The notes beneath the pieces were generated by a model, which was given only the letters and a program-made list of their open reading frames with translations, was not told the DNA's origin and did not search any database. A stretch of DNA of 64,000 bases from an uncultured Flavobacteriaceae bacterium (GTDB lineage Bacteria > Bacteroidota > Bacteroidia > Flavobacteriales > Flavobacteriaceae). Positions 1,588 through 64,000 of this stretch are shown here, piece after piece; positions within the stretch are counted from its first letter, which is position 1; every line of letters begins with the position of its first letter. A program made the translations under genes and the position numbers. The stretch covers positions 1-64,000 of the forward strand of contig CANMXP010000020.1 in the NCBI GenBank assembly GCA_947501845.1, written 5' to 3'.

Positions 1588-1706
1588 AGCTTTTTTAGAT
1601 TTGATTCTACTATAAGACTTCATAAAAAGCAAATGGTTTAATTGGGAAAAAATCAGGGCGTTAAAAATATATTCCTTGTTGTTTATGGATTAGCCCTATA
1701 CGGCCA

Positions 1707-1726
1707 CACTTAGCGCAGTCGAAGTG
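1707..1726. repeat. Short palindromic repeat, GCGCAGTCGA core
   Basis: CACTTAGCGCAGTCGAAGTG has CACTT/AAGTG arms around the core GCGCAGTCGA. The same core occurs at 58936-58978 as an inverted pair, inside metG at 60546-60558, and (reverse complement, 12 bases exact) at the very end of the window. It looks like a remnant of a dispersed repeat family. Confidence 0.6.
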
Positions 1727-1784
1727 CTTTATTGGTTGTTTAGGCAGCCTTAGAGCTTCGCCTGACATTATGGGAATGAATTGT

Positions 1785-3420: not shown

Positions 3421-4524
3421 ATGACAGAAAATGAATTACTTTATACTCTGGCTTTACAACATGTCCCAAATATTGGAGATATAACCGCCAAACGCCTTAT
3501 TTCGCATTGCGGTACCGCCGAGGCTGTTTTAAAGGAAAAGAAACAAAATCTGCTTAAAATTGATGGTATTGGAAGTGTTATTTTAGGAGATTTATTTGAA
3601 GCCTACCATTTAGAGGCAGCAGAAAAGGAAATTGCCTTTATAACATCTAACCAAATTCAAGTATCTTATTTTAAGGAGGCAAGTTATCCAGAAAAACTTA
3701 AGCATTGTATTGATAGTCCTATTCTGTTATTTCAATCTGGGAATATTAATTTAAAGCAACAACATGTTATTAGTATTGTTGGAACTCGAAAAATAACAAC
3801 TAACGGTATGGCATTTTGTGAAGCTTTGGTAGAAACATTGGCACCCTATAACCCCGTTATCGTTTCTGGGTTTGCATACGGAACCGATATTACTGCTCAT
3901 AAAACAGCCATTAAAAACAATTTACAAACGGTTGGTTGTTTGGCACACGGATTGAACCAAATTTACCCCAAAGTACACAAAAAGTATATGGCAGAAGTAG
4001 AGAAAAATGGTGGTTTTTTCACCGATTTTTGGAGTAGTGATACGTTTGATAGAAACAACTTCTTAAAACGCAATAGAGTAATTGCAGGCTTGAGTGAAGC
4101 AACTGTTGTTATAGAATCTGCTGAAAAAGGAGGTAGTTTGGTAACTGCAGATATTGCAAACTCTTATAATAGAGATGTATTTGCTGTGCCAGGTAGAACC
4201 ACAGATAGCCAGAGTGTAGGGTGTAATAATTTAATAAAGCACCAAAAAGCACATATGCTTACCACGCCTTTAGATGTGCCTTATATGCTAAACTGGCAAT
4301 TAGAGGATGAGAAAAAGCCAGCAATACAAAAACAATTGTTTGTTGAATTGGAGGCCACAGAAAAAACAATTTATTCGTATTTAAAAGAAAATGAAAAGCA
4401 ACTACTGGATGTAATTGCCCTTAATTGTAACATGCCCATTTTTAAAGTAGCAAGTATATTGCTTACCATGGAACTTAAAGGTGTGATTAGGCCCTTGCCT
4501 GGTAAGTTATTTGAGGTTGTTTAA
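3421..4524 (+). CDS. dprA: DNA-processing protein DprA
   Basis: DprA loads RecA on incoming single-stranded DNA during natural transformation and protects it. This 367-residue protein has an N-terminal helix-hairpin-helix-like region (PNIGDITAKRLISHCG and KIDGIGSVILGDL, within about 15-60), then the Rossmann-like DprA domain (about 105-285) with VGTRKITTNGMAFC, VSGFAYGTDITAHKTAI, RNRVIAGLSEATVVIES and EKGGSLVTADIAN, and finally a C-terminal winged-helix region (about 300-365). The length and domain order fit the family. It is divergent from the HU/SPOR gene. A short hairpin repeat begins at its stop codon. Confidence 0.95.
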   Translation: MTENELLYTLALQHVPNIGDITAKRLISHCGTAEAVLKEKKQNLLKIDGIGSVILGDLFEAYHLEAAEKEIAFITSNQIQVSYFKEASYPEKLKHCIDSPILLFQSGNINLKQQHVISIVGTRKITTNGMAFCEALVETLAPYNPVIVSGFAYGTDITAHKTAIKNNLQTVGCLAHGLNQIYPKVHKKYMAEVEKNGGFFTDFWSSDTFDRNNFLKRNRVIAGLSEATVVIESAEKGGSLVTADIANSYNRDVFAVPGRTTDSQSVGCNNLIKHQKAHMLTTPLDVPYMLNWQLEDEKKPAIQKQLFVELEATEKTIYSYLKENEKQLLDVIALNCNMPIFKVASILLTMELKGVIRPLPGKLFEVV

Positions 4525-4543
4525 TTCCTGCGAAGGCAGGAAT
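4524..4543. repeat. Hairpin repeat at dprA stop
   Basis: ATTCCTGC (4524-4531), loop GAAG, then GCAGGAAT (4536-4543), followed by CTC. It begins on the last base of the dprA stop codon. Related ATTCC/GGAAT hairpins occur at 21983-22008 and 34960-34979. It may act as a weak terminator or simply be a dispersed repeat. Confidence 0.6.
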
Positions 4544-4584
4544 CTCAAAATTTTATTGTACTTTTCTTCTGTCAAAAAAATCAA

Positions 4585-21976: not shown

Positions 21977-21982
21977 GTGCTT

Positions 21983-22047
21983 GTCATTCCTACCTTTACA
22001 GGAATGACAAAAAGAAAAAAATATAAGATTTCCGCCCTCGCGGAAAT
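21983..22047. repeat. Two hairpin repeats in the scoA-scoB spacer
   Basis: First hairpin: GTCATTCCT (21983-21991) with AGGAATGAC (22000-22008), loop ACCTTTAC. Second: ATTTCCGC (22028-22035) with GCGGAAAT (22040-22047), loop CCTC. Both belong in style to the ATTCC/GGAAT repeats of flavobacterial genomes. They fill the gap inside an operon, so the scoB leader carries two stable stems. Confidence 0.7.
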
Positions 22048-30562: not shown

Positions 30563-32050
30563 TTATTTATTTGTCCAATCGACAGGGTTTTTTAAAACGT
30601 CTATTAATTTTTCTTCTTCACTCCCAGCTTCAGGTTGATGATCGTAAACCCATTGTACATGAGGCGGCAAGCTCATTAAAATACTTTCTATACGGCCATT
30701 GGTTTTTAATCCGAAAAGTGTGCCTTTGTCATGTACTAAATTGAATTCTACATAGCGTCCCCGACGAATTTCCTGCCAATTTCGTTGAGCTTCTGTATAT
30801 TTTAATGTTTTTCGTTTTTCAGCAATAGGTACATAAGCTTCTAAGAAACTATCACCAACTTCGGTTACAAAGTCATACCAGTTTTTCATGGTCATGGTTT
30901 CTGAGGCTTTACAATAATCGAAAAATAAGCCACCTATTCCTCTGCCTTCATTGCGGTGTGTATTATAAAAATACTCATCGCAGCGTGCTTTATATTTTGG
31001 GTAAAATTCTGGGTTGTGATTGTCGCAAGCTGTTTTACAGGTTTGATGAAAATGTTTTGCATCTTCTTCAAACAAATAATAAGGTGTTAAATCCTGTCCG
31101 CCACCAAACCAGCTATCAATAATTTCACCTTGTTTGTCATACATTTCGAAATAGCGCCAGTTAGCATGTACTGTTGGAACCATAGGGTTTTTAGGGTGTA
31201 AAACCAAGCTTAATCCACAGGCAAAAAAATCGACATCACCTACTTTAAAGTAGGTTTGCATTGATTCTGGAAGTTTACCATGAACACCAGAAATATTGAC
31301 ACCTCCTTTTTCGAAAACATGTCCGTTTTCAATAACACGAGTACGTCCGCCGCCACCTTCTGGTCGTTTCCAGATATCTTGTTGAAATTTAGCTTTTCCG
31401 TCAACAACTTCAAGTTTTGAAGTAATACGATCTTGTAAGTCTTGTATGTATTGGTAGAATTTAGGCTTGATAGTTTTTGGTTTGATTGTGTCGTTAAGAC
31501 CTGTCAGGTTTTGAAAACCTGACAGGTCTGAGTTATGAGCATATTTAAAATTTTCCAAATCATTAAAAAGATTTAATATATATAATTTATTTGTAGCAAT
31601 AATATTATTACTATCATTAAGGTAGTTTTTATATGATGAGAATTCATAGTTTTCAAAACTTTTAACCACATTATGATTCTCTGGATTTTTATGAATATAA
31701 AGAATAAGTTTTTTTAAATAGTCTTCATTTTGAATCCGAATTCTTTTATATGGTCTTTCAAAAAGAGTTTCTGTTCTTTTTTGTTGTTTATTATATGCTT
31801 TAGCATAAGCATTAAAGAGGTTAGAAAAAGCCTGAGTGACAGTAGATTCTTCTTCAATAATTTTAACAGCCAAATGAAAATGATTATCCATTAAGCAATA
31901 AGCGAGAATATCTACTTTACCTGTTAAGTGTTTATCAATTAATTTTAGAAAATAAGACTTATTGTTTTCGGTTTGAAAAATAATAGCACTATTAATTCCT
32001 CTATTAAAAATATGGTAATAATGATCTTTTTCTATTTTTTCTTGTTTCAT
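30563..32050 (-). CDS. hemF: In-frame fusion: RAYT transposase with coproporphyrinogen oxidase HemF
   Basis: One open frame of 495 codons holds two unrelated proteins. Residues 1 to about 172 are a REP-associated tyrosine transposase: HYYHIFNRG at the start, the metal-binding H57FH59 in CLMDNHFHLAVK and the likely catalytic Tyr118 in LILYIHKNP. Residues 175-185 are translated from a 33-bp palindrome. From about 196 to 495 is a complete oxygen-dependent coproporphyrinogen III oxidase (KFYQYIQDLQDRITSKLEVV, RPEGGGGRTRVIENG, FGGGQDLTPYY, GIGGLFFDYCK, FGLKTNGRIESILMSLPP). I find no ATG, GTG or TTG in frame near the HemF part that could replace its own start; the first Met is at residue 264, inside the enzyme. 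HemF would therefore depend on transposase translation. Confidence 0.85.
   Translation of the reverse strand: MKQEKIEKDHYYHIFNRGINSAIIFQTENNKSYFLKLIDKHLTGKVDILAYCLMDNHFHLAVKIIEEESTVTQAFSNLFNAYAKAYNKQQKRTETLFERPYKRIRIQNEDYLKKLILYIHKNPENHNVVKSFENYEFSSYKNYLNDSNNIIATNKLYILNLFNDLENFKYAHNSDLSGFQNLTGLNDTIKPKTIKPKFYQYIQDLQDRITSKLEVVDGKAKFQQDIWKRPEGGGGRTRVIENGHVFEKGGVNISGVHGKLPESMQTYFKVGDVDFFACGLSLVLHPKNPMVPTVHANWRYFEMYDKQGEIIDSWFGGGQDLTPYYLFEEDAKHFHQTCKTACDNHNPEFYPKYKARCDEYFYNTHRNEGRGIGGLFFDYCKASETMTMKNWYDFVTEVGDSFLEAYVPIAEKRKTLKYTEAQRNWQEIRRGRYVEFNLVHDKGTLFGLKTNGRIESILMSLPPHVQWVYDHQPEAGSEEEKLIDVLKNPVDWTNK
31497..31529. repeat. 33-bp perfect palindrome, copy A
   Basis: AGACCTGTCAGGTTTT, one G, then the exact reverse complement. 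It is read through in frame as DLSGFQNLTGL inside the fusion protein, so a very stable stem lies in the middle of the mRNA coding region. Confidence 0.95.
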
Positions 32051-32064
32051 TTGTTGTCTTTGAG

Positions 32065-32097
32065 AGACCTGTCAGGTTTTTAAAACCTGACAGGTCT
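32065..32097. repeat. 33-bp perfect palindrome, copy B
   Basis: Same arms as copy A with T at the centre. It sits between the isomerase gene and the transposase start. In RNA it would be a strong hairpin 14 bases before the start codon and, with few T after it, a poor terminator. Confidence 0.95.
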
Positions 32098-58814: not shown

Positions 58815-58830
58815 GGACTCAAAATAATTC

Positions 58831-58856
58831 GTCATTTCGAGTGAAGCGCGGGAATC
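58831..58856. repeat. Dispersed repeat, GTCATTTCGAG type
   Basis: GTCATTTCGAGTGAAGCGCG followed by GGAATC is an imperfect hairpin of the ATTCC/GGAAT repeat style seen after dprA and before hemE. It lies in the gap between the LD-carboxypeptidase gene and metG. Confidence 0.5.
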
Positions 58857-58935
58857 TTTCTAATTGAATTTAAAATTAAACAGATTGCCACAATTTTTTA
58901 TCAAAAACTTCACAATAACGTTAATTTTGTTTCCT

Positions 58936-58978
58936 CGAGCGCAGTCGAGAGGTTTTAATTAGGTCTCGACTGCGCTCG
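58936..58978. repeat. 15-bp inverted repeat with GCGCAGTCGA core, upstream of metG
   Basis: CGAGCGCAGTCGAGA (58936-58950) and TCTCGACTGCGCTCG (58964-58978) are exact inverted copies around a 13-base loop. The stem lies 21 bases before the metG start and could form in its leader RNA. The core is shared with the copies at 1.7 kb, in metG and at the window end. Confidence 0.85.
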
Positions 58979-58999
58979 ACCTGACATAAAAATAATAAG

Positions 59000-61066
59000 A
59001 TGAGTACACCAAAACGATATACAATTACCACAGCACTTCCTTATACAAATGGAGCCATTCATATTGGCCATTTGGCAGGGGTTTATGTTCCAGCAGATAT
59101 ATACGCGCGCTATTTACGATTAACAGGAAATGATGTTATATTAATTGGTGGAAGCGACGAGCATGGTGTACCCATTACAATTAAAGCGAAAAATGAGGGT
59201 GTTACGCCTCAAGATGTTGTAGATAAATACCATGCGATTATTAAAAAATCGTTTGAAGATTTTGGAATTACTTACGATAATTATTCGCGTACTTCAGCAA
59301 AAGTGCACCATAAAACAGCTTCAGAGTTTTTTACGACTTTAAATAATAAGGGTGAATTCGTTGAAGAAGTGACAGAACAATTGTATGATGCCGAGGCCAA
59401 TCAGTTTTTAGCAGATCGATTTGTGGTAGGAACTTGTCCTAAATGTGGAAACGAAGAAAGTTATGGCGACCAATGTGAAAACTGTGGAACAAGCCATAAT
59501 GCGACCGATTTAATAAATCCGAAGTCAGCACTAACAGGAAATACCCCTACTTTAAAGCAAACAAAGCACTGGTTTTTGCCTTTAGATAAACATGAAGCCT
59601 TTTTAAAAGAATGGATTCTTGAGGGGCATAAAAAAGATTGGAAATCGAATGTTTATGGGCAGTGCAAATCATGGATAGATGATGGTTTACGTCCTCGCGC
59701 CGTAACCAGAGATCTAGATTGGGGAATTCCTGTACCAGCAGAAGGTGGTGAAGGCAAAGTTCTTTATGTTTGGTTTGATGCGCCTATAGGTTATATTTCA
59801 TCTACAGTAGAATGGGCAGAACGTGAAGGAAAAGATTGGGAACCCTATTGGAAGGATAAAGACACCAAACTGGTTCATTTTATAGGAAAAGATAATATTG
59901 TATTTCACTGTATTATTTTTCCATCGATGTTGAAAGCAGAAGGGTCATATATCTTACCAGAAAACGTACCTGCTAATGAGTTTTTAAATTTAGAAGGGAA
60001 TAAATTATCGACCTCAAAAAATTGGGCCGTTTGGTTGCCAGAATATTTGGAAGAATTCCCAGGTCAACAAGACGTATTGCGTTATGTTTTAACTGCTAAT
60101 GCGCCAGAGACGAAGGATAATGATTTTACCTGGAAAGATTTTCAGGCAAGAAACAATAATGAGTTGGTAGCCATTTTTGGGAATTTCATTAATCGTGTTG
60201 TTGTCTTAACAAACAAATATTACGATGGAAATGTTCCTGCTCCAAATGAATTATTACAAGTTGATGAAGAAACATTAACAGCGGTAAAAGCCTATCCAGA
60301 TGTTATATCTAGTTCTATCGAACGGTATCGTTTTAGAGAAGCGCAGCAAGAACTTATGAATTTAGCACGACTTGGAAACAAGTATTTAGCAGATGCAGAA
60401 CCTTGGAAAGTTATTAAGGTAGACGAGGGCCGTACAAAAACGATTATGTATGTAGCCCTTCAAATAGCATCAGCTTTAGCAACATTGAGTGAGCCGTTTT
60501 TACCATTTACTTCAGCGAAGTTAAAAGTTATATTAAATGTTACGGCGAGCGCAGTCGAAACATCTTGGAATGATATCAGTTCCAAAGACATATTGCTCCC
60601 AGCAGATCATAAGATAGGGAAAGCAGAATTGTTATTCTCTAAAATTGAAGATGCAACTATTCAAGCACAGCTCTATAAGTTAGAAGCTAGTAAAAAAGCA
60701 AATGAAATAGCAAATGCTGTTGTAGAGCCACAAAAGGATACCATTACGTTTGAAGATTTCACAAAATTAGATATACGTGTTGGAACCGTTTTAGAAGCCG
60801 AAAAAATGCCAAAAGCTAAAAAGTTATTGGTTTTAAAAGTGGATACAGGTATTGATGTACGGACTATTGTTTCTGGAATTGCTGAAAGCTTTACTGCCGA
60901 AGAAGTGGTTGGAAAGCGCGTAACCGTTTTAGTGAACTTAGCACCAAGAAAATTAAGAGGTGTTGAAAGTGAAGGTATGATTTTAATGACCGAAACACCA
61001 GAAGGTAAATTGGTATTTGTAAATCCAGATACTTCAACTGTTGGTAATGGCTTGCAGATTAGTTAG
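59000..61066 (+). CDS. metG: Methionine-tRNA ligase
   Basis: MetG charges tRNA-Met. The 688-residue class I synthetase has the HIGH motif in [20 protein letters not shown] (about 13-32), zinc knuckle [18 protein letters not shown] (about 148-165), KMSKS-type NKLSTSKNW and a C-terminal tRNA-binding OB domain (about 580-688: [20 protein letters not shown]). A piece of the GCGCAGTCGA repeat family lies in frame at residues about 515-520 ([11 protein letters not shown]), in the helical region between anticodon-binding and OB domains; it adds a few residues but leaves the frame intact. The leader has a long hairpin. Confidence 0.97.
60546..60558. repeat. Repeat fragment inside metG
   Basis: CGAGCGCAGTCGA matches 13 bases of the left arm at 58936-58948. 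It is read in frame within the ASAVET segment of MetG. Confidence 0.7.
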
Positions 61067-61152
61067 GGGTTTTCCGCCAATTAGCTTGATTTTTGATCTT
61101 AATATTATTTCAAAAATTAAAGAATTAGTTAACTTTACATAAAAAGAATATT

Positions 61153-61671
61153 ATGTTATCAAAAACCATAGAAGAAGCCTTAAATAATCAAATAAGAATA
61201 GAAGCAGAATCTTCCCAAATTTATTTGGCTATGGCATGTTGGGCCGAAGTAAAAGGTTTGGAAGGGGTCTCTAATTTTATGTATGCGCAATCTGATGAAG
61301 AGCGTGAACACATGCTTAAATTAGTGAAGTTTGTAAACGAACGTGGTGGTCATGCAAAAATTTCTCAGTTGGCGGCACCAAATATCACCTTTAAATCTTT
61401 TAAGGAAATGTTCGAAAAACTATTCGAACACGAAGTATATGTATCTCAAAGTATTAATGAATTAGTACATATTAGCCTTCAGGAAAAAGATTATGCAACA
61501 CATAACTTTTTACAGTGGTATGTTGCCGAACAAATAGAAGAAGAAGCTGTGGCACGTACCATTCTTGATAAAATAAATATGATTGGTGACGATAAAGGAG
61601 GTCTGTATTTATTTGACAGGGATATTGAAAATTTAACAGTCACAACTGCAGCAACCAATACTCCTGAATAA
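61153..61671 (+). CDS. Ferritin
   Basis: Ferritin stores iron as a ferric core in a 24-subunit shell. The 172-residue protein has a four-helix ferroxidase fold with NNQIRIEAESSQIYLAMACW (first helix Glu), SDEEREHMLKLVKFVNERGG (Glu and His pair) and VAEQIEEEAVARTILDKINM. There is no heme-binding Met like that of bacterioferritin. It lies after metG on the same strand with an 86-base gap. A TAACTTTA box, one base from the -7 consensus, precedes it. Confidence 0.95.
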   Translation: MLSKTIEEALNNQIRIEAESSQIYLAMACWAEVKGLEGVSNFMYAQSDEEREHMLKLVKFVNERGGHAKISQLAAPNITFKSFKEMFEKLFEHEVYVSQSINELVHISLQEKDYATHNFLQWYVAEQIEEEAVARTILDKINMIGDDKGGLYLFDRDIENLTVTTAATNTPE

Positions 61672-61711
61672 TTTTAACACTTAATCTTATTTAGATTTAA
61701 TAAAAATAAGC

Positions 61712-61719
61712 TATTTTTG
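61712..61719 (+). promoter_or_regulatory. -7 box for the small Cys/Lys-rich gene
   Basis: TATTTTTG lies 28 bases before the TTG start of the 53-residue gene and matches the TAnnTTTG consensus. Confidence 0.4.
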
Positions 61720-61747
61720 CCGCGTTATCTAAATCTTAGATTCTATT

Positions 61748-61909
61748 TTGGGCAAAAAGAAGAAGCAAAAGGCTATAAAAAAATTACAAAAAATTGGTGT
61801 TATCACAACCGATAAGGTAAAAACCAGCTGTTGTAAAAAGTTCAAAAAAGGCGAAAACAAGCGCTGTAAAAAATGCCCTTGTTTCGATTTGCTTAAAAAA
61901 GTGGCTTAA
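61748..61909 (+). CDS. Small Cys/Lys-rich conserved protein (53 residues)
   Basis: A TTG-initiated frame gives a 53-residue protein with a very basic N-terminus (MGKKKKQKAIKKLQKIG) and a Cys pattern KTSCCKKFKKGENKRCKKCP then CFDLLKKVA. Five Cys in CC, C-x2-C-x-C spacing suggest a metal site or a small zinc ribbon. I recall similar short proteins, with a KRCKxCPCFDLLKK tail, as common in flavobacteria, usually unannotated because of their size. A -7 box lies upstream. Its function is unknown; nucleic-acid or metal binding is plausible. Confidence 0.7.
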   Translation: MGKKKKQKAIKKLQKIGVITTDKVKTSCCKKFKKGENKRCKKCPCFDLLKKVA

Positions 61910-62129
61910 AAAAGCCCGCTTACATTCTAACTTGTTGAAGTACAAGATTCAACTTTTAAATACATTACATTTTTTAAAGTTATTGTTAAAAAAAGTGACT
62001 AAGCTCTTTAATCTGTGTCTTAAAGTTATCTACGTTAAGTGCTTAAATTCTTCAGAAAAATCATATAAAAAACATCTGAAGACGCGCTCTAATTCGTAAA
62101 TACCTTAGATCTTTATTAAATATAAATTT

Positions 62130-62600
62130 ATGAAAAAAACACTTCTTTTTTTAATTGCCATTAGTTTAGTATCCTGCGGAGCATCAAAAACCGTAAGGGA
62201 TTCAAAAAAAGTAATCAAGGGAGATTGGTTGCTAAATTCAATAACCTATAGTGAAAAAGGAACCTATAATGTTAATTTGCTTAGTGATACTTCTAAAGAA
62301 TGCTTTGAGGGAAGTACATGGCAGTTTGTTCCTAACAATAATACTGGAGTTTACAACATTAATGGCGCTAGTTGTTCAAGCGGAATTCGAAATTTTGTTT
62401 TTACAATTCAAGAAATTGACCCTCAGACTGGGCTTTACGATTTTCTACTTAAGCCAACTAATGAGAAGTATAAATCTGAAACCAACCGTGGTTTTCGGTT
62501 GAAATTAACCTCATTGTCAGATGTCATGATGCAGTGGGAACAAACCGTATCGGTTGATGGGAAACCGTTTACAATTACAATGAATTTTAATAAACAATAA
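62130..62600 (+). CDS. Lipocalin-like lipoprotein
   Basis: A 156-residue lipoprotein with signal and lipobox LVSCGASK (Cys16). The mature part has a lipocalin-type start (IKGDWLLNSITYSEKGTYNV) and the following strands (FEGSTWQFVPNNNTGVYNIN, GIRNFVFTIQEIDPQTGLYD), ending with MMQWEQTVSVDGKPFTITMN. Such proteins sit in the outer membrane, facing the periplasm. The ligand is unknown. The OmpA gene follows after four bases, so the two form an operon. Confidence 0.85.
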   Translation: MKKTLLFLIAISLVSCGASKTVRDSKKVIKGDWLLNSITYSEKGTYNVNLLSDTSKECFEGSTWQFVPNNNTGVYNINGASCSSGIRNFVFTIQEIDPQTGLYDFLLKPTNEKYKSETNRGFRLKLTSLSDVMMQWEQTVSVDGKPFTITMNFNKQ

Positions 62601-62604
62601 AATA

Positions 62605-63309
62605 ATGAAGACATTTTTAAACAGAATCGGATTAATCTTTTTGGCACTTATTTTAACAATGAGTCTAACAAATTGTAAAGCCGTACAAAATGCCAATAAC
62701 AAACAAAAAGGCGCGGTAATTGGTGCTACTGGTGGTGCTATTTTAGGGGCTATTATTGGTAATAATATTGGTAAAGGAGGTAACGGCGAACTAGGGGCTG
62801 TAATTGGTGGTGTTATTGGTGGTGGTGCAGGAATTCTTATTGGAGACAAGATGGATAAACAAGCCCAAAAAATAGAAGAAGAAATCCCTGGTGCCGAGGT
62901 TGAACGTGTAGATAATGGTATTGTAGTAACATTTGATGAAGGTAGTGGCGTTTATTTTGATACAAATAAGTATAATATCAATGCCTCTTCTCAGGAAACG
63001 TTAAATAAACTGGTAGGTGTTTTTAGAGAATATCCAGATACCAACATTTTAGTTGTAGGTCATACCGATAACACGGGTGATGCCAACTATAACATGAATT
63101 TATCTAAAAACAGAGCATACGCTGTTACAAACTATTTTAAGGGTAAAGGGCTTAGTTCTGGCAGATTTACTACGAATTGGTTTGGGGAAGATCAACCTGT
63201 ACACGATAATTCGACAGTAGAAGGAAGAGCAAAGAACCGACGCGTTAACATTGCTATTTTGCCTAACGAAAAGATGATTGAAGAAGCTAAGGCAAAAGCG
63301 AACAATTAA
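62605..63309 (+). CDS. OmpA-family lipoprotein with glycine zipper
   Basis: A 234-residue outer-membrane-associated protein: signal with Cys at SLTNCKAVQN (lipobox), a glycine-zipper span (about 35-80: GAVIGATGGAILGAIIGNNI and GAVIGGVIGGGAGILIGDK), then an OmpA domain (about 105-225: YFDTNKYNINASSQETLNKL, VVGHTDNTGDANYNMNLSKN and GRAKNRRVNIAILPNEK) that binds peptidoglycan. The layout resembles the YiaD/Pal-like proteins. It is closely linked to the lipocalin-like gene and ends with a strong terminator. Confidence 0.93.
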   Translation: MKTFLNRIGLIFLALILTMSLTNCKAVQNANNKQKGAVIGATGGAILGAIIGNNIGKGGNGELGAVIGGVIGGGAGILIGDKMDKQAQKIEEEIPGAEVERVDNGIVVTFDEGSGVYFDTNKYNINASSQETLNKLVGVFREYPDTNILVVGHTDNTGDANYNMNLSKNRAYAVTNYFKGKGLSSGRFTTNWFGEDQPVHDNSTVEGRAKNRRVNIAILPNEKMIEEAKAKANN

Positions 63310-63330
63310 AATTAGAATTAAACTTGCATA

Positions 63331-63371
63331 AATCTCGTTTTCAATGTTATTTTTGAAAACGAGATTTTTTT
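63331..63371 (+). terminator. Strong intrinsic terminator
   Basis: AATCTCGTTTTCAA (63331-63344) and TTGAAAACGAGATT (63353-63366) form a 14-bp stem with an eight-base loop and a following T-run. It ends the lipocalin-OmpA operon. Confidence 0.9.
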
Positions 63372-63398
63372 ATGCGCTCAATTAATTCAGATAAATAA

Positions 63399-64000
63399 AT
63401 GATTGATATTTTAAAGTTTATAACTTCCCAAACCCAGCTCCCAGAGCAATCTGTAAAAAACACCATTGCATTACTCAATGAGGATTGTACAGTTCCGTTT
63501 ATTTCACGTTACCGAAAAGAGCGAACAGGTAATTTGGATGAGGTTCAAATTGGCGAGATCGTAAAATATAAAGAAGCGTTTGAAGCTTTAGAAAAACGAA
63601 AAAAAGCCATTTTAAAAGCTTTAGAAGAACAAGCTGTTTTAACACCAGAATTGAAGGAAAAAATAGTGTCTGCTCAAGATTTAACAACGCTTGAAGATAT
63701 CTATTTGCCATACAAGAAAAGTAGAAAAACCAAGGCAGAAACAGCTCGTAAAAACGGATTAGAGCCTTTGGCAAAAATCATTATGAGCCAAAATGCCAAC
63801 GATCTTGAATCGGTTGCTTTTAAGTACATAAAAGGTGATGTTGAATCGGTTGAAGCTGCTTTAGAAGGGGCAAGACATATTATTGCCGAATGGATAAACG
63901 AACGTAGCGATATTAGAAATAATATCCGCTATCAATTAGAGCGCTTTGCAATGATCTCTACAAAAAAAGTTGTAAAAACAAAAGCTGACACTTCGACTGC
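63399..64000 (+). CDS. tex: Tex-like RNA-binding protein, 5' part
   Basis: The first 200 codons of a Tex protein, a transcription accessory factor with YqgF-like, HhH and S1 domains. Seen here: QSVKNTIALLNEDCTVPFIS, RYRKERTGNLDEVQIGEI (the family's early signature), DLTTLEDIYLPYKKSRKTKA and AEWINERSDIRNNIRYQLER. The window ends before the catalytic-like and S1 regions. Near the end, after STKKVVKTKAD, the codons enter a CACTTCGACTGC repeat where I would expect the sequence to move on toward the YqgF-like domain, so the gene may carry a repeat insertion. It runs off the window. Confidence 0.93.
   Translation, partial: MIDILKFITSQTQLPEQSVKNTIALLNEDCTVPFISRYRKERTGNLDEVQIGEIVKYKEAFEALEKRKKAILKALEEQAVLTPELKEKIVSAQDLTTLEDIYLPYKKSRKTKAETARKNGLEPLAKIIMSQNANDLESVAFKYIKGDVESVEAALEGARHIIAEWINERSDIRNNIRYQLERFAMISTKKVVKTKADTST
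63989..64000. repeat. Repeat fragment inside tex at the window end
   Basis: CACTTCGACTGC is the exact reverse complement of 1715-1726. It is cut off by the window edge, so only its start is seen, and it lies in the tex reading frame. Confidence 0.6.

Follow-up and report, generated by a model that had tools for sequence, protein, structure and literature searches.

Rickettsia palindromic elements (RPEs) were reportedly described by Ogata in 2000 and 2002. In the excerpted text of PMC10969869, they appear as short palindromic selfish DNA that is located between genes and, in frame, within conserved proteins. GTAG and CGTC palindromes, which are repetitive extragenic palindromic (REP) sequences, were treated by Di Nocera et al. 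2013 (PMC3733652). According to the sections of that paper at hand, CGTC palindromes also occur in Bacteroidetes and RPE-4 and RPE-6 are counted among them; their intragenic copies include those in tRNA synthetase and TruB genes, and the insertions are considered possibly neutral in loops, with altered repair proteins also being speculated upon. Here, we analyzed a stretch of 64,000 nucleotides (the window) on contig C20 of the 5.37-Mb genome of an uncultured Flavobacteriaceae bacterium (G000), which carries a palindromic repeat, F1, both between genes and within metG and tex. Very probably, the short core first noticed in this window is part of a REP-like short mobile palindrome that inserts genome-wide, the survivors within genes being kept as loop peptides.

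F1 is composed of a tag (often TGTC), a 5-nt arm, GAGCGCAGTCGA, and a complementary arm, and was scored as 5-nt arms around a 12-nt core. The 10-base core GCGCAGTCGA lies at its centre, and the palindromic unit is longer than these ten bases. Four exact 10-base cores are present in the window (1713-1722, 58939-58948, 58966-58975 on the minus strand, and 60549-60558), just where an earlier note on this DNA had placed them, and none was expected from 100 dinucleotide shuffles. Allowing one mismatch adds a single site, 47156 inside an open reading frame (ORF), no more than chance would give (0.52 expected per window). A genome-wide search, suggested by the same note, detected 46 exact copies of the 12-mer in G000 versus 0 for the reversed control. 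Each of the 12 genomes of the genus (G000 plus 11 relatives from the same genus, G001-G011) contains 6 to 83 copies of the 12-mer, which was detected in 20 of the 40 genomes searched.

Intergenic and coding repeats were scanned in a 1.277-Mb sample of G000 consisting of ten pieces. Seven of them (197 kb) had been chosen for a search match or as the contig of the window, and the other three are contigs C1-C3, on which F1 density was 22.0 per 100 kb between genes versus 0.52 in ORFs, a 43-fold difference. The arms vary among copies but pair: intergenic copies paired at a mean of 3.5 of 5 positions when the core was exact (n=18) and at 3.8 when it had one mismatch (n=18), compared with 1.93 at random places.

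As outlined in the available sections of PMC3733652, CGTC REPs are similar to F1 in several respects: an end-tagged palindrome, opposite-orientation pairs, intragenic copies in tRNA synthetase and TruB genes, and the lack of a linked transposase gene (for F1, exact cores lie more than 1.5 kb from the G000 transposase genes of the Y1 type, the only type searched). Ten close pairs (<120 nt) were found among the 36 intergenic F1 copies with at most one mismatch; all ten are in opposite orientation and eight have their tag ends outside. On the other hand, the tag of these 36 copies was TGTC in 16, any NGTC in 17, and CGTC in none, whereas a window repeat of another family, at 58830, does start with CGTC. 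Folded as DNA, one F1 copy gave a 5-bp stem with a 6-nt loop, unlike the 8-9 bp stem, 4-5 nt loop, and 3-nt tail given for CGTC REPs. The word Flavobacteri is absent from the main text of PMC3733652, and the sections at hand mention neither same-site turnover nor a 24-nt unit.

In tex, the earlier note had reported a 12-base match to the repeat at the last bases of the window. This match is real, and the sequence past the window end on C20, CACTTCGACTGCGATTAGTG, shows how far the exact copy goes: 13 exact bases are followed by the decayed remainder of a repeat. The core of this F1 copy has two mismatches, and all 5 of 5 arm pairs are kept. Each of the 12 genomes of the genus has a tex ortholog, and the alignment comprised 21 Tex proteins. 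An in-frame block of eight residues (24 nt) is present only in G000 (TSTAISAR) and G011 (TSTALSVR), 2 of the 12, and in 0 of the 9 other genomes aligned; the same residues in distant genera, which the note had named as a sign of chance, were thus not found there. Unrelated extra residues occur nearby in Tex of G004 and G013. G000 and G011 are sister species, with support of 99 from MetG minus the loop and of 100 from parts of five genes, and they keep different halves of CACTTCGACTGCGCTCAGTGT, CTGCG in G000 and CTCAGTGT in G011. Read together, the two decayed copies make up the repeat, so a full F1 was probably present in the ancestor of both. The tex copy is a true insertion.

In metG, as noted earlier, a piece of the core is read in frame, here as part of a repeat-derived block at 60539-60565. 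In a structure model of MetG (mean predicted local distance difference test score, pLDDT, 79.8), residues 513-522 form a coil between helices 502-512 and 523-528, and pLDDT falls to 71 in block 511-520 from 94 and 87 in the adjacent blocks. The repeat thus fills a loop; insertion at a domain border was rejected, as the loop falls within the Pfam Anticodon_3 region (413-556), inside the anticodon-binding domain.

The same loop carries different repeats in different species. Among 31 genomes searched, 30 metG loci were aligned and 28 covered the loop. The 12 genomes of the genus contain four families at this site: F1 in four (G000, G002, G005, and G007), F2 (TGTCATTCCGCACTTGATGCGGAATCC) in three (G001, G006, and G008), F3 (GTCATGCTGAGCTTGTCGAAGCATCT) in three (G011, G003, and G009), and F4 (TTCGAGTGAT...TATCGAGAA) in two (G004 and, degenerate, G010). 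Thus, even the sisters G000 (F1) and G011 (F3) differ. By eye, the G005 copy retains the tag and both arms of F1, F2 in G001 has an 8-bp stem and a 5-nt loop, and the G003 and G009 loops contain a second repeat in opposite orientation. The F2 and F3 words were found in 8 and 10 of 21 genomes searched, respectively.

The comparison also covered 80 named MetG genes from across the family (the best 80 of 582). A strict repeat word was present in the loop of 18 of the 80; equal-sized segments from other parts of these genes gave an expectation of 0.105, and all remaining sequence of the 80 genes contained four. The 18 words belong to F1 (9), F4 (3), F3b (3), F2 (2), and F3 (1). Distant genera do have similar residues in this loop, and their DNA again fits repeats, of five families. 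Loop length has two modes, 6-7 residues (26/80) and 10 residues (34/80), and the longest loops, up to 53 residues, are from Lutibacter metagenome-assembled genomes (MAGs). Among the matches listed, from which very near records may be absent, the nearest named MetG genes were from an uncultured Flavobacteriaceae bacterium (95%), Flavivirga aquimarina (94%), F. aquatica (91%), and an uncultured Algibacter (91%). As a separate observation, MetG loops of 24-53 residues in L354, L358, and L335 (Lutibacter and Flavobacteriaceae MAGs) hold paired or arrayed F1-like repeats.

Sample scans and Pfam revealed in-frame repeats in five more conserved G000 proteins: LeuRS, Mfd, TruB, PyrD, and BioF (BioF was named by its sequence; its Pfam match is aminotransferase class I/II). 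All five were chosen because of a repeat word in G000, and each was compared over 17-18 loci. In LeuRS, F1 is present in 4 of the 12 genomes (G000, G002, G003, and G007) and the site is empty in G004, G005, G010, and G011; the segment of G001, G006, G008, and G009 is unlike that of other genomes and has perhaps been acquired by transfer. TruB has F1 in 7 of 12 (degenerate in G005 and G010, doubled in G000) and none in G001, G002, G006, G007, and G008. PyrD has it in G000, G007, G009, and G011 (4/12) and lacks it in the other eight. In TruB, PyrD, LeuRS, and Tex, the empty form is 24 nt shorter than the filled one. An intergenic pair at C3:152258, filled versus empty between G000 and G001, also differs by 24 nt; it is one clean single-F1 pair taken from at least 40 intergenic comparisons.

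The two remaining proteins, whose families were assigned by eye, resemble MetG in carrying several families at one site. Mfd has F9 in 7 of 12 genomes, an F1 pair in G005, and no clear repeat in four. BioF has reversed F3 in G000, reversed F9 in G003, F1 in G001, G002, G006, G008, and G011, a nested repeat-in-repeat in G004, an F1 whose loop contains another palindrome in G005 and G009, and a degenerate or unclear repeat in G007 and G010; further repeat words occur in BioF of G016 and G012, which belong to other genera. Here also, the sisters G000 and G011 differ in family (reversed F3 versus F1). F1 is translated in at least three frames, giving SAVE (MetG and LeuRS), ERSR (PyrD and BioF), and STALS (TruB and Tex). 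The suggestion of the earlier note that a mobile repeat serves as a source of short peptides is largely right, and the repeats in these five proteins are consistent with a source that supplies short loop peptides repeatedly.

Internal insertions and deletions (indels) of at least four residues with good flanks were also surveyed in 689 reciprocal best protein pairs of G000, G001, and G011. The survey drew on selected regions: the stretches of G001 and G011 had been picked as syntenic with known repeat genes, and rows were counted per species pair, so that one event may show twice. A strict repeat word was found in 10 of 42 rows, or 7 of 42 after one family was dropped, versus 0.17 in the same-gene control; three of the seven are TruB and LeuRS again. 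The F7/11 word is loose (12 intergenic and 10 coding matches), and with this word removed as well the count is 5/42. Exact enriched 12-mers gave 5/42 versus 0.62. Eleven of the 42 rows are exactly eight residues long, and eight of those are F1- or F9-like by eye. The dropped family, F10 (a CTCCCC palindrome in LeuRS of G001), accounts for 3 of the 10 matches; it was removed as a repeat family because, under the rule applied, none of its words had a copy between genes in the G000 sample, though one related word does occur in G000.

These data suggest the following scheme. F1 and several other palindrome families would insert throughout these genomes. Wherever an empty site can be cleanly compared, F1 adds 24 nt, or eight codons, and a step of this size keeps the reading frame of a gene. 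Such an insertion would survive in a loop that tolerates it, provided that its reading frame is stop-free; most are removed, F1 density being 43-fold lower in ORFs. The survivors, in metG, tex, and at least five other conserved genes, would be retained as ordinary loop peptides while slowly decaying as DNA palindromes. Insert-tolerant loops may be struck or replaced again, and therefore different species would carry different families at one site. The inserted peptides are presumably surface-located and neutral.

Compared with RPEs, in-frame palindromic inserts missing from orthologs are a shared feature, found here in Tex, TruB, PyrD, and LeuRS. The differences, by description only, are the 24-nt step, several families per site, and a Bacteroidota host, versus ~150 bp for RPEs in the excerpt of PMC10969869. 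Intragenic REPs and RPEs are already known; what is new is same-site family turnover, the recurring 24-nt step, and these hosts. Among the literature matches listed (titles and abstract openings, with few subscription papers), there were no intragenic Flavobacteriaceae REPs, same-site turnover, or 24-nt step. Protein-coding palindromes are thus extended to Flavobacteriaceae, and one loop of an essential enzyme with four different mobile inserts within one genus is a natural experiment. Neutrality of the inserts, movement of REPs without a linked transposase, and mobile DNA as a source of linkers and fusions are now testable.

Several observations weigh against this scheme. Coding F1 words with two mismatches show arm pairing no better than chance (mean 2.15, n=13), and most of them are not repeats. 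Intergenic differences other than the C3 pair are larger blocks or of other sizes, and the 24-nt step was seen for F1 only. The metG copy of G000 no longer folds as DNA. Short MetG loops are common, and 22 of the 34 10-residue loops have no strict word (12 do); by eye, several of these 22 look like decayed F1. The MetG loop also lacks a clean 24-nt empty site, 10-residue loops exceeding the shortest by 3-4 residues, and replacement or deletion must therefore be added to the scheme there. The absence of an exact F1 core near the Y1 genes, and a possible mimicry of family turnover by transfer of alleles between species, belong to the same side.

Such allele transfer, in which one old insertion per family was followed by short-tract homologous recombination between species, is a real possibility, even if we lean away from it. 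G000 is the sister of G011, yet in metG it is G003 and G009 that have F3 and some flanking letters in common with G011, which favours transfer in this gene, and the LeuRS segment of G001, G006, G008, and G009 looks block-replaced. However, a separate first insertion per family at one site would still be required, and the nested BioF repeats of G004, G005, and G009, as well as the MetG-loop repeats of other genera, would be left unexplained.

How F1 moves is a further question. Quite possibly, though we hold this only tentatively, it moves as single-stranded hairpin DNA via a transposase acting in trans. No enzyme for F1 was found in a search for exact F1 cores beside the Y1 transposase genes of G000. 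Each of the two Y1 genes has its own flanking palindromes, and one of these palindromes is dispersed, as in the GTAG REPs with REP-associated tyrosine transposases (RAYTs; TnpA-REP, excerpted text of PMC6006769). The palindromes beside the Y1 genes are not F1, and F1 has no GTAG end. GTAG or its complement occurs in 3 of the 36 F1 copies, where it is the core variant GAGCGTAGTCGA itself. Copying without a transposase, by replication slippage, template switching, or gene conversion at hairpins, would agree with the lack of a linked Y1 gene and with Table 1 of Di Nocera et al. 2013 (PMC3733652), where, in the part accessible, no transposase association is given for CGTC repeats. We consider it rather unlikely, as clean 24-nt steps occur at several unrelated sites.

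It is very improbable that the peptides have been selected for a function, such as loop tuning, and are not merely tolerated. Repeats do recur in translation and repair genes (MetG, LeuRS, TruB, and Mfd), as they do in the accessible part of the gene list of PMC3733652, whose authors speculate on altered repair proteins; yet unrelated peptides of different families occupy one loop, several F1 frames are in use, and close relatives lack the inserts. That the metG and tex words are ordinary codons matching an intergenic repeat by chance is hardly credible and was rejected in view of the empty sites and the family-wide MetG survey: the two mismatches in the tex core and the 0.52 one-mismatch cores expected per window are its only support, versus 0.00 exact matches expected, a tex block missing from 10 of 12 genomes, and 18 of 80 loops with a repeat word.

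The window also contains a fusion of a Y1 transposase with HemF (table 1). The palindrome in its linker is AGACCTGTCAGGTTTTCAAAACCTGACAGGTCT in G000, with a near copy upstream and related ones at four intergenic sites of the sample. The fusion is open in 6 of the 12 genomes; the other six match only the HemF part at the hemF locus. All six fusions retain the HuH motif NHFH and the tyrosine motif, and at the former start codon of HemF four of them have ATC or ATA, whereas two retain ATG. The ratio of nonsynonymous to synonymous divergence (dN/dS) is 0.07-0.22 for the transposase part (10 of 15 pairs with dS estimable, some dS >1) and 0.04-0.07 for the HemF part (15 pairs). A more speculative extension, which we think unlikely, is that a few loops (MetG, BioF, Mfd, and LeuRS) may act as standing docking sites where other families preferentially land or replace, so that a frame-safe 24-nt mobile unit would continually re-equip proteins with new loop peptides, and that the same kind of element could join domains, as with the palindrome linking transposase and HemF.

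Table 1. Repeats and genes of the window discussed in the text
Feature	Position	Strand	Remark
Intergenic single F1 repeat	1703..1728	+	Exact core
Intergenic palindrome, ATTCCTGCNNNGGCAGGAAT family	4523..4545	.	
Palindrome TGTCATTCCTACC...AGGAATGACA at ORF edge	21982..22009	.	
In-frame fusion of REP-associated (Y1) transposase and HemF, 495 aa	30563..32050	-	Pfam PF01797, PF01218
Palindrome read in frame, linker between transposase and HemF halves	31497..31529	-	
Second copy of the fusion-linker palindrome, upstream of the transposase-HemF gene	32065..32097	-	
Intergenic palindrome, non-F1 family, CGTC-ATTTCGAG...GGGAATCT	58830..58857	+	
Intergenic F1 pair, opposite orientation, tag ends outside, upstream of metG	58928..58986	.	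DNA fold -20.2 kcal/mol, z -6.1
metG, methionyl-tRNA synthetase, 688 aa	59000..61066	+	Pfam tRNA-synt_1g, Anticodon_3 413-556, tRNA_bind
Decayed F1 in metG, read in frame as VTASAVETS, residues 514-522	60539..60565	+	
tex, 5' part	63399..64000	+	Continues to C20:65552, 717 aa
Start of 24-nt F1 insert in tex, read TSTAISAR	63990..64000	-	Insert reaches 64013 on C20

The second Y1 transposase of G000 (185 aa, C10:153844-154062, L032) is flanked, by eye, by CCGCTAAAC...GTTTAGTGGC palindromes. Further candidate repeat words were noticed in a TonB receptor (C2:40585), at an ORF start (C3:46007), and at an ORF end (C3:39022). LeuRS of G001 (L250), G006, G008, and G009 contains CTCCCCTTCGGGGAGG-type palindromes.

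The nested cases prompted the idea that repeats generally enter the hairpin loops of other repeats; a test for pairing flanks led to its rejection as a general rule. F1 (3/65, shuffled mean 2.08) and F3 (1/20 versus 0.35) showed no excess. F3b had pairing flanks in 6 of 69 (shuffled mean 1.3, reached by 0 of 1000 shuffles), several of these being one composite repeated in G001. In the G001 sample (L250-L269), a composite repeat with F3b within the loop of ATTCCTGC...GGCAGGAAT was observed several times.

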